Source: Apostichopus japonicus (taxonomy: Eukaryota > Echinodermata > Holothuroidea > Aspidochirotida > Stichopodidae). From it: 64,000 nt of DNA. Under the pieces are notes generated by a model. That model was not told the DNA's origin. It saw only the letters and a list, made by a program, of their open reading frames with translations, and ran no database searches. Made by a program: the position numbers and the translations under genes. Shown one piece after another: positions 11,201-38,600 of this stretch; position 1 is the first letter of the stretch, and each line of letters starts with the position of its first letter. The DNA is taken from the NCBI RefSeq assembly GCF_037975245.1, contig NC_092567.1, forward strand, positions 22,899,376 to 22,963,375, read 5' to 3'.

Positions 11201-14200
11201 GTCAATAATAATGGCCAGTCAGAAGTTCCTGCTCAAAGATCATGCTAGGATCGAAATGTCATGTCCACTATTAAACTTTTACATGTTTACCTACACAGGC
11301 TTTTTGCTATCAGTTTCTTCTCACTTTTAGTAACAGTTTGTGTTAGCTTTGGTGAGTTTACAAGGACATCTATCAGTAATTGTGGTGTTACTCACAGCAT
11401 TGTTGATTACTTCATTGTAGGGCTCTGATCACCAACCAGCTACAATTGAAGTTTCAGCTTCTTCGTCCTTGTCATCCACGTCTGGTGCGCCTCTCAGATT
11501 GAAAACACACGAAGCAAGCACTTTAGCTATCAAGGTACTGAAGCTTCTCCCACATTAGACATTCTTCATTTTGGTTTTGAGCATGGACACTTGTTTAACA
11601 ACAGAGTGCTGCTACCATGGTTATTGTGAGATACCATGTTAATATGTCTTGAAACCCCCAGTGAGAGTAGAGGTCTAGTTGCCTGGTTAATATACAAGTT
11701 TGTCCATAGTCTGTTGCTAAATGTTAAATGAATCATGTGAACAGCCAGAAGAATATCAACATGACGACCACTGGTGATAATAGCATAACATTATGAGATG
11801 ATAATATCAAAGTATGAGATGATAGTATCAAAGTGTGAGATGATAGTATCAGAGTATGAGATAGTATCAAAGTCTGAGATCACAAGTCTGAGATGATAGT
11901 ATCAAAGTCTGAGATGATAGTATCAAAGTATGAGATGATAGTATCAAAGTATGAGATGACAGTACCAAAGTATGAGATGATAGTATCAAAGTATAAGATG
12001 ATAGTATCAAAATATGAGATGATAGTATAAAAGTATGAGATGATAGAATAAAAGTATGAGATGATAGTATCAATGTATATGATGATAGTATCAAAGTATG
12101 AGATGAGGGTATAAAAGTACATGATGTTAGTTTATAAGTACATTATAATGTAAAAGTACATGATTAATGATAACAAAAAAATTGAGGGTGCTTAACACTT
12201 TCTCTTGAAAGATGTATGATGATTCAGCAAGACAAGACTTCGCTATGTGATTTTCGAAATTAAATGTATCCAACCGTTTTAAATGTTTTCCAAAAGCATC
12301 ATGAATTTTTGTCTTTACCTTCTATTCTTTCAGAGGTAGGCTTTTAATAGCTGAATATATAATAACCTTCAACATAACAAATAACAGCACATATTGTTTC
12401 ATCTCTGCCAAGGGTATTATCCCATTTCATGAAGTTTTACTATTTTCTTTCTCTCCTCCACGCAGGCTGTTGCAGCAAACACTGATGTGTTTGGCAAGGC
12501 ATTTCGATGCACATATACAGGGTGTGGTAGGTTCTACACCTCGGCCCACCATCTCAAGGTAAACTTATAAATTATACAATTTAATGGAAGTAGCATTTAT
12601 TTTAATCTATTTTAAGATTTTTATATCGATTGGTTAAACAAGTTAAGACAGTTTGTTGCATTATCTTGTAATGCATTTGAGACAATTCTGTGTTACCCTT
12701 AGTCTGTGTTTCTCTTCAAAAGCTATCAACCTTTTTTAGCATTTGTCCAAAAAAATTATTTAAAGTAACTCTAGATTTGGGTTTTGAGTTAGGATTCATA
12801 CTCAGTTAATTGTTGGTTCACAAATGTGCAGTATTTTAAGCTAAACAGCAATAATACAATATTGGTTGAATGTAGTAATATTTTGCTTTTGTAAATATGT
12901 TTTATCTCTTTTGTATCCCTAACTCAAGTTTCTGACAGTCCTTCACTGCTTTGAAAAAGCAATAAATTTTCTATGGCACTTTTGAATGCCTTTAAATTAT
13001 GATTCATACCAAAGTTAATTTAAGATACACAGACAGTTATTTTCGTAGGTCCACAAAGTTTGTGAACAAATTTCAACTAAATTAGACTTAAGGATGCTAT
13101 TACAGAGAAAGACATGAATTGTACCATTTTCCAAAATTCTAGTTTTCTGCTTTTATAAAGCACTTATTGTTACTTTAACACATTGATACTTAAAAATAGT
13201 GATGATAATTTTATGATTAGAACACTGTTACAATGATAACTTGTTTAAATTACAATAAAATTACTAATGTAAACTTTCAATTTAATCTACCATGGTGCTT
13301 ACAGGTTCATGTGCGATCTCATACTGGAGAAAAACCGTACAGATGCACTCACTGCGAAAAGGCATTTGCGACGAGTTATGGCCTGAAGAGTCACACAAGA
13401 GTTCATACCGGGGAGAAGCCGTATAAATGTCCCTTTGCTAACTGTGCAAAGGCATTTAAGACTTCAGGGGATCTTCAGAAGCACATAAGGACACACACTG
13501 GTGAGTTTGTGGTAGTTGTTCTGGTTGTGTACTGTACTGTGCAAACACATAAGGACACACACAGGTGAGTTTGTGGTAGCTGTTCTGGTTGTGTACTGTA
13601 CTGTGCAAACACGTAAGGACACACACAGGTTAGTTTGTGGTAACTGTTCTGGTTGTGTATCATACTGTGCAAAACATAAGGACACATACAGGTTAGTTTG
13701 TGGTAGCTGTTCTGGTTGTGTATCGTACTGTGCTAAAACATACTGACACACACAGGTGAGTTTGTGGTAACTGTTCACTGAACTGTGCAAGAACATAAGG
13801 ACACACACAGGTGAGTTTGTGGTAACAGTTCTGGTTGTGTACTGTACTGTGCAAGACCATAAAGACACACACAGGTGAGTTTGTGGTAACAGTTCTGGTT
13901 GTGTATCGTACTGTGCAAAACATAAGGACACATACAGGTTAGTTTGTGGTAGCTGTTCTGGTTGTGTATCGTACTGTGCTAAAACATACTGACACACACA
14001 GGTGAGTTTGTGGTAACTGTTCACTGAACTGTGCAAGAACATAAGGACACACACAGGTGAGTTTGTGGTAACAGTTCTGGTTGAGTACCGTACTGTGCAA
14101 ACACATAAGGACACACACAGGTGGATTTGTGGTCACTGTTCTGGTTGAGTACCGTACTGTGCAAACACATAAGGACACACACAGGTGGATTTGTGATAAC

Positions 14201-35600: not shown

Positions 35601-38600
35601 ACAATTGCTTCAATTCTTCGTCCACCTGTTGGTGAAATCCAACACCGCGGTCATCAACACCTTGACCTTGATTGAAATGGACAGCTCCATCCAGACCATC
35701 TTTGACCTGGCCTGCACCGATGTCCTCAACATTACCCTGTTTTAGTATACCCTGTAACGACTGCTCCTGACCGAGTCCCTCATGTCGTAAATTACCTTGG
35801 CCAGCGATTCCCACTTGACCATCACCTGGGACGAATTGTAATTTATTTTTCTCCTCCTGTATCTGCGCTTCCAACTGTTCGTGTTTCTCGGCTCGTCTTT
35901 GAACCAACAGTTCTTTCTGCTCATTGGTCAATTCTTTCTGTTCCTTTTCCTCTAATAGTTCATCCCCTTCCTCCTTCCCTCCCTCTCCTCGTTCTGCAAC
36001 CAGTCTTCTCTGCTCATCAAAGTCAACTGATTGGATGTACTCGGTTAAAAGAAGTGTCTTCTCCTGGTTGTAGCCTTTCTCTGTGAGGTCACCTACAGAT
36101 AAAAAAAAATATTTAAAAAAAAGATAAAAAGACATAAAAAGTTTCACATCGGACAAAAAAAAGAGTAAAACATTTTCTGTCTGTGAAGGTCTGTTTTAAT
36201 TTCCCTTGTGTTTTTTCTGGACCTCGCGACATATACACATCACGGTTCATAAGTTTCTATGCCTTCCGTACAACCATACTTTCCTTTACACAATTTCCTT
36301 TTTATAAACGTCTTTCGCACATAAACGGAAAACGACGGTAACATTTTCTTCGCCTATTAATATTCTTCTGATACCGTCAAATGAAGCAACATTCAAATAA
36401 CTCTCATTAGTAGTTCAACTGTGTTTCACTTCATTCTCCTGTCAATAAAGATGAAAAACTTACCCTCCTGAAGTAACTTGTCCAATTCTGCCAGTTTGCC
36501 CTTAACATCCTCGTTTAAGAGTTCTTCTGCAACCTCTGGAATCTGACCTTTAATTTCAGCTTCTCCTTCTTTGTCAAATTGTGGTTTCCTGCAAAATTTA
36601 TGAATATTCATGAAGGATCACTATGATGATGATGTTTATTCATGAGATGACATAACAATACACCCCAGGTGGGACAATTGTTTTTTTCCCTTGTCTACAC
36701 TGCACTTTCATGTCCCGCTTCTCGTTGCTATAGCAATGCTTAAGTGTATATTAACAAATATTCACAAAACTCAACCCCCAAAATGCTTAAAGTAAGCTGA
36801 CTTTACTTTAGAACACTTTTGTCTTTTTAAAATTAATTTGTTGTGTAAAGACCACATCAAAAGTGATGAAGTTAGACTACTAATGCCTTAGTTCTACTAT
36901 CATATGAAACAACTTATTTTAATTCTTGTTTTACTATTTGTACTGTTGCTGTAAAGCGCTTTGAGTCTTTGGGAAAGGAGTTATATAAATATGTTTATGT
37001 ATGCATGTATGTATTCTCACCTCCCCCCAATCCCACCCCCTTTCCCCACACACACCTCTTTGGCATGTCACTCATTAACTAGCTAGCTTATGGCACTTAG
37101 AACCAACCTGTTTTGCTCTGGTATCATCTGGAATTTGTAAGGTGGTTCTGTTGGGCCATCACCTGTTTTATCACTTTCAAGTATATCTTTGTTTGGTAAA
37201 CCTACTGCGGTCTCCTCCACTGGCCTGGTATCTGCTTTAACCCGGAATGATACCTGTACAAAATGAATCATTTAGATGAGAGTAACGACTATCAAATTGA
37301 TTACATGAACCCTGATTCTGTGGGTCCAATGTCTTATCAGTAAAATGGCAAATCCAGATAAACCTTCATGTGTATGGTAGACCTGAGATGTTAGTTTAAT
37401 AGTCCTCTCTTTCTCTCAATTACAGCCGTTAATGGCAAAGAAATTGTTATTCTGCACTGATTCCCGTCACCAGCTAATGTCTAAAATCTATTCACAGGCA
37501 AGTAAACCCAATTGTCATTTTTATACAACAGAGATGCATGAACTGCAACCCCCCACAATTCCCCCTTCCCCTCCTGAGCACCTCCCCTCCCCTCCCAACA
37601 CCAACAACAACTAAGAAAGATTTTAGCCCTCAACTTGAACTACAAACCCTAGTAGATACTATTTGTACAAAGAATGAAAGTCTCTGCTGTTAGTAGGAGC
37701 AAGACTGTTACCTCAGCTTTATGACTCTTAACTTGAACTATAAAACCTAGTAGATACTATTTGTACAAAGCATGAAAGTCTTGGCTGTTAGTAGGAGCAA
37801 GACTGTTACCTCAGCTTTATGATTCTCAACTTGAACTATAAAACCTAGTAGATACTATTTGTACAAAGCATGAAAGTCTCGGCTGTTAGTAGGAGCAAGA
37901 CTATTACCTCAGCGGGCTCCCCATCTGCATCTTTCCCGTTCACTCTTATCACAATCTCCGTCTCCGTAAAGTTCTTGTAGAGGAGGAGATGGACGGTCTT
38001 AAAGAGTTGAGCGATGGTGGCGGTCCTGACAATGCCACCGGCTTGATAGTGTCCCTCGGCGATGCTACCGGCCTTACCGAAGATTGGCGTGACATTGAAG
38101 AAGGCAACCTGAAGACCTTAGTGTTTGGAAACGAGGAAAGATATACCGAGAATCAAGCGAGAGAAATGTTTTAGTCATGTGACACCTTAGTGATTTGTTG
38201 ACAAAAGCAGAATGATGATATTCTGTGGGCAACCCTGAAGACCTTAGTGTTTGGAAAGGAGGTAATATATACCCAGAATCAGCCAGAGAAATGTTTTAGT
38301 CATGTGACACCTTTGTGATTTGTTGACAATAGCAGAATGATGATAACCTGGAGGCAAGTTGGAGACCTTAGTGTTTCGAAATAAATACCAAGATACAAGT
38401 GAGAGGAATGTTTTAATCATGTGACACAAATTAAAATACTAAACAGACAAACAAAAGAATTTGTTGACAATAACAGAAGATGATAACTGAACAACATTTG
38501 CCTCTCAGGCACCGTGTCAAAAGTCCGATGCTGGGGGGGGAGGGGCTGCAGCCTCACTGCAGCCAGGCTGTGTAGCACATCATCTCTAGTATTCTGCATT

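Follow-up and report, generated by a model that had tools for sequence, protein, structure and literature searches.

The human interferon-induced gene 6-16 (IFI6) carries a minisatellite whose 12-bp unit holds an exon's donor and which presents several splice donors. The closest described arrays are the mirages of amphioxus, in which, according to the available portions of two reports (PMC3087553, PMC3902484), tandem units of 10-160 bp that differ between genes cross the exon-intron boundary. In the same text, both 5' and 3' boundaries are hit, often with AG/GT signals, the arrays show length polymorphism (between haplotypes or somatic) with regular splicing undisturbed, and mirages are proposed as possible creators of introns.

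Arrays of comparable anatomy are found in the sea cucumber Apostichopus japonicus. Within the window, the whole stretch of 64,000 nucleotides that was analysed, Tandem Repeats Finder (TRF) detected five tandem arrays, with units of 64, 31, 125, 98 and 67 bp, distributed over two genes, one ZNF143-like and one GNPTAB-like. Reading of the sequence together with in-frame exon models indicates that these arrays cross four donors and one acceptor. The gene models comprise 26 in-frame exons (6 on the plus strand and 20 on the minus strand). Once joined, the six plus-strand exons encode C2H2 zinc fingers (Pfam), while the twenty minus-strand exons form one frame chain whose protein carries Stealth_CR2 and Notch (LNR) domains (Pfam). 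What is established for each gene is its domain content; the names ZNF143 and GNPTAB are our own assumption as to identity. The TRF results and the exon models confirmed the original prediction of five arrays with these units at exon edges, and our reading agrees that the five units are mutually unrelated. A shared transposon as the origin of the arrays was rejected because the units differ.

Table 1 Exons and boundary-crossing arrays in the window (window positions)
Feature	Position	Strand	Basis
ZNF143-like exon, donor 13500 copied	13305..13500	+	in-frame, AG/GT edges; C2H2 zinc fingers (Pfam)
64-bp-unit array, 12 donors including the true one	13479..14216	+	TRF, edge comparison, donor list
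ZNF143-like exon, donor 14846 copied	14667..14846	+	in-frame exon
31-bp-unit array, 13 donors including the true one, ~11 exon nt per unit	14839..15240	+	TRF, edge comparison, donor list
Array cluster: 67-bp unit (32161-32450) plus 64-bp/33-bp part	31975..32450	-	TRF, edge comparison
GNPTAB-like exon, donor 32449 at array edge	32449..32623	-	in-frame exon
98-bp-unit array, 2.9 copies, across donor 37908, 6 exon nt	37629..37913	-	TRF, edge comparison
GNPTAB-like exon, arrays at both ends	37908..38116	-	frame chain of 20 exons
125-bp-unit array, 2.2 copies, across acceptor, ~15 exon nt	38102..38381	-	TRF, boundary offset -15

The 64-bp unit of the ZNF143-like gene joins 22 exon nt to 42 intron nt; TRF itself delimits this array at 13482-14216. 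The word ACTGTGCAAA occurs in this unit and also upstream within the exon (window 13440-13450); the initial duplication here may have taken in more of the exon. In the GNPTAB-like gene, only ctaag/GTCTTCAG keeps the frame as the acceptor under the 125-bp array, given the upstream exon as modelled, and it places the exon start at 38116. A second acceptor, ttcag/GTTGCC (38108), was dropped because it is out of frame with that upstream exon. With the in-frame start, about 15 exon nt are copied by the 125-bp array rather than 7. At donor 32449 just 1-2 exon nt are common to the next unit, so the 67-bp array barely touches its exon. A long exon of the same gene (window 34315-36092, minus strand) has an in-frame coding tandem repeat (array 35005-35397), and arrays are therefore also tolerated in some coding sequence. 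Two adjacent arrays, one with a 27-bp unit (~42 copies) and one with a unit of 47-55 bp, occupy window 45666-47125 on the minus strand, and their units contain TTCTACAG-like words. This pair stops 20 nt short of an acceptor; here and at a locus outside the window (L037) the arrays end 13-20 nt off the acceptor and leave it uncopied.

Copies of the splice site are well preserved in three arrays that were compared column by column. The GT is intact in 34/34 extra copies, and the non-consensus rate of donor columns against the remaining columns is 0.071 vs 0.098, 0.056 vs 0.091 and 0.030 vs 0.038. Copies of whole splice sites are present in the arrays and so tolerated, as one alternative of the original prediction had supposed. 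Such preservation could mean that the arrays are retained for a function in splicing, with the extra donors or the repeats acting as spare or regulated donor sites. Slightly better conservation of donor columns in all three arrays, the GT in every extra copy and the many copies in both ZNF143-like arrays that outscore the true donor (8.5 vs 7.5; 6.3 vs 5.7) are consistent with this explanation. We nevertheless consider a role in splicing unlikely. Invariant neighbouring column pairs are common in the three arrays (24/63, 14/29 and 42/68), so that an intact GT in all copies is expected by chance about 1 time in 9. In addition, GNPTAB-like copies score under the true donor (3.9 vs 5.1, and 1.5 vs 5.1 for the weak donor held by the copies at the 67-bp array), there is no enrichment over random placement in the genome-wide comparison of donor words described below, and amphioxus mirages are reported, in the text available, to leave regular splicing undisturbed. 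The coding frames suggest that the first donor is the one used in the ZNF143-like gene. As the copies there are often stronger, donor strength alone would be insufficient to direct this choice, and position or exon context would be needed.

The loci outside the window consisted of 20 regions of 10 kb at kinase exons and 2 at myosin exons. Exons in these loci were predicted from the DNA sequence with a small model that had first been trained with the window and was then adjusted with the loci themselves; at the cut used it returned 85 predictions vs 18 on a reversed-sequence control. Before edges were counted, an exon missed by the predictor (L025) was added and the edge at L016 was corrected, both by hand. 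At L016 the model had misplaced the donor (5359); inspection by eye put the exon end at 5271 and the start of the array ~44 nt into the intron, and the locus was rejected as a spanned edge.

Boundary-crossing arrays beyond the window were found at L025, L033, L035, L040, L044, L045 and L050. Independent genes with unrelated units are represented by a KRI1-like, an acyl-CoA-oxidase-like and a CDK11-like gene. The CDK11-like exon (L025; PDB match, E 4.2e-40) enters a 70-bp array with 12 donors, and 64 nt of the unit are exonic. The KRI1-like gene (L033; Pfam Kri1_C; array C2:28048938-28050349) displays at least 27 perfect CAGGTAAGT donors spaced 54 bp apart past one exon, as counted from 26 overlapping matches, and the acyl-CoA-oxidase-like assignment of L050 comes from a PDB match. 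Pfam gave no match for L035, L040, L044 or L045, nor did the PDB for L035; these four are supported by an open frame, coding score and splice sites, and L035 is presumably VPS39. The arrays at L040 (C17:904300-905500; C17:905383-905838) have a 56-bp unit in which acceptor-like and donor-like sites flank ~30 nt, each unit resembling a mini-exon with a 26-nt spacer. At L026, in a gene which we take to be PKC-like, the donor aligns to the unit of a ~23-bp array, though the TRF cluster starts 23 nt into the intron; this locus was used in the exon-share test described below and excluded from the count of spanned edges. Unit lengths among the firm cases range from 23 to 125 bp, and the sequences are, by reading, unrelated.

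The repetition of the same anatomy in unrelated genes argues against the arrays being an assembly artefact, misassembled or misplaced. According to the available part of its description, the Apostichopus japonicus assembly (671.6 Mb, 34 scaffolds) was made from HiFi long reads (PMC10344927). Reads of this kind should span arrays of 0.3-1.4 kb. Artefacts do occur elsewhere in the assembly, as mitochondrial COX1 pieces are carried by the 31-kb contig C29 (31,219 bases; L004-L006 and L009), which is perhaps a misassembled mitochondrial copy. On balance, an artefactual origin of the arrays appears highly improbable. In the 16,099-base mitochondrial contig, COX1, ND4L and COX2 are consecutive and ND6, encoded by the minus strand, separates ND5 from CYTB, an arrangement typical of sea urchins and sea cucumbers.

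The density of arrays at exon edges bears on whether exon-intron junctions actively trigger tandem duplication (for example through AGGT microhomology, nucleosome edges or co-transcriptional R-loops). Array clusters were defined by a TRF period of 15 or more and a score of 80 or more. Outside exons they cover ~10.7% of the length of the window and ~7.3% of that of the other loci. In the window, which was selected for these arrays, 5/52 edges are spanned vs 1.06 expected if its 16 array clusters were placed at random. Initiation at junctions draws support from this count and from several donor cases whose unit has an exon share near zero (0.00, 0.01 and 0.06). In the 22 other loci, 1/149 edges is spanned vs 1.79 expected (donors 1 vs 0.89 and acceptors 0 vs 0.90, at mean cluster density); pooling of all loci, with the discovery window included, gives 5 spanned donors vs 1.39 expected. 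The edge sample comprised 102 predicted exons from the window and the 22 other loci. Array-cluster starts per 75-nt bin, from the donor into the intron, number 5/100, 4/98, 4/97, 3/96, 1/96 and 0/86 overall and 1/74, 4/72, 3/71, 1/70, 0/70 and 0/64 outside the window. The edge bin outside the window (1/74) is followed by a bin with 4/72, so there is no donor peak, and across the 102 exons array starts show no excess at exon edges over the deeper intron. The original prediction had named a lack of genome-wide array-edge enrichment at exon edges as grounds against it, and no such enrichment was found in this sample.

Spanned acceptors (1/101) are fewer than spanned donors (5/100). Such a shortfall is what first-AG scanning at the 3' splice site should produce, though counts this small do not permit the claim. 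At 200 nt into the intron, array coverage is higher from the donor end (15/96) than from the acceptor end (6/97) in the 22 loci and the window.

A genome-wide comparison (671,581,487 bases, 35 contigs) was performed without the use of exon positions. Perfect donor words 30-60 bp apart were searched against reversed words as a control, in addition to the words alone; a tandem place required at least three exact copies, and places were tallied by hand. Donor words gave 22 tandem places per 12,469 occurrences and control words at least 16 per 8,054 (p 0.74). Removal of dispersed families left 19 vs at least 14 places (p 0.72), two places of one dispersed family being dropped from the control. The 22 donor-word places consist of 9 CAGGTAAGT and 13 CAGGTGAGT, and the 3 left out of the 19 belong to one dispersed family. 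Genome-wide, donor words are therefore not commoner in tandem than control words, which argues against active initiation. An earlier pattern of two AGGTAAGT separated by exactly 4 bases was uninformative (4 matches vs 59 for the control), the control matches probably being inflated by simple repeats.

The excess of donor words over the control suggests that real donors make up 32% of CAGGTAAGT and 41% of CAGGTGAGT. If donors were duplicated like other stretches, 7.0 of the 19 non-family arrays would be expected to start at an exon. By a reading that was not blind, 7 of the 19 firmly start at a coding exon's donor, 1 probably does so (L046) and 11 do not; exclusion of the window's own array leaves 6 or 7/18. 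The seven firm cases are the ZNF143-like gene of the window, L033, L035, L040, L044, L045 and L050, with homology support for the window gene, L033 and L050. The pairs L041 and L042, which were chosen as exon-like, both start at exon ends and were excluded from the 19, as was L052 (two exact words), where the examined stretch sits within the array.

The position of the unit relative to the exon end differs widely between arrays. For 13 donor cases, the exonic fraction of the unit, or exon share, takes the values 0.00, 0.01, 0.06, 0.17, 0.24, 0.25, 0.34, 0.35, 0.57, 0.60, 0.69, 0.70 and 0.91, with 8/13 values below 0.36. These shares are compatible with a uniform distribution (KS p 0.29 for the 13 cases and p 0.49 for 12 firm ones), in a small sample in which word-found cases necessarily contain at least CAG. 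Shares that reach 0.91 also argue against duplication that begins at the junction. With array starts no denser at edges, donor words equal to control words and exon shares spread from 0 to 0.91, the preferential start of duplication at exon-intron junctions that the original prediction had put forward is not supported, and we regard active initiation there as improbable, slightly more so than a role in splicing.

The explanation we favour, and consider probable, is frequent untargeted tandem duplication that is tolerated across donors and results in minisatellites of the mirage kind in an echinoderm. In a genome rich in arrays, tandem duplication of short segments would occur at essentially random positions. 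Wherever the segment lies over a 5' splice site, its outermost copy continues to end the exon and the remaining copies are intronic, the pattern seen here; because the segment straddles the splice site, the unit contains that site automatically. Splicing would then still use the exon-proximal donor, so that the change would be nearly neutral and the array free to lengthen into the intron. Targeting of exon edges is not needed to explain the arrays. A further reading, which we put forward tentatively as a minority possibility, is that donors here, as in amphioxus, are roughly neutral to duplication, and that among dozens of perfect copies of donor and exon context the exon-proximal one is chosen by position. 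If true, such arrays would be natural many-donor competition experiments, and mirages would characterize several invertebrate deuterostomes instead of being peculiar to lancelets.

These results widen the range of mirages, so far single lancelet genes, to include an echinoderm, and the controlled test indicates that duplication across donors is about as frequent as across comparable words elsewhere. Donors that tolerate tandem copies supply the raw material needed by models of new introns and isoforms. The window also illustrates that a striking local cluster can stem from a high genome-wide density of arrays. The original prediction had treated the pattern as undescribed; in the available text of the amphioxus reports, mirages have identical anatomy and the idea of intron creation was already published (PMC3087553, PMC3902484). 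The kind of array is thus already known, and the echinoderm host and the control-based test are the additions; an echinoderm case of such arrays was not found in the open-licence literature searched. Compared with IFI6, a single human gene with a 12-bp unit, the sea cucumber arrays have longer units and occur in many genes. Intron gain by tandem duplication likewise crosses an exon-intron boundary and creates a new intron there, whereas the copies described here sit within introns. The likeness to mirages, as far as their available description goes, is closer. Both span the boundary with a unit length and sequence specific to the locus, both duplicate donors and acceptors (here mostly donors, with one acceptor at 38116), and both keep AG/GT signals in many copies (here the GT in all 34 extra copies of three arrays). 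Unlike the mirages of amphioxus in that description, those of the sea cucumber reside in an echinoderm host and include one array with at least 27 perfect donors.
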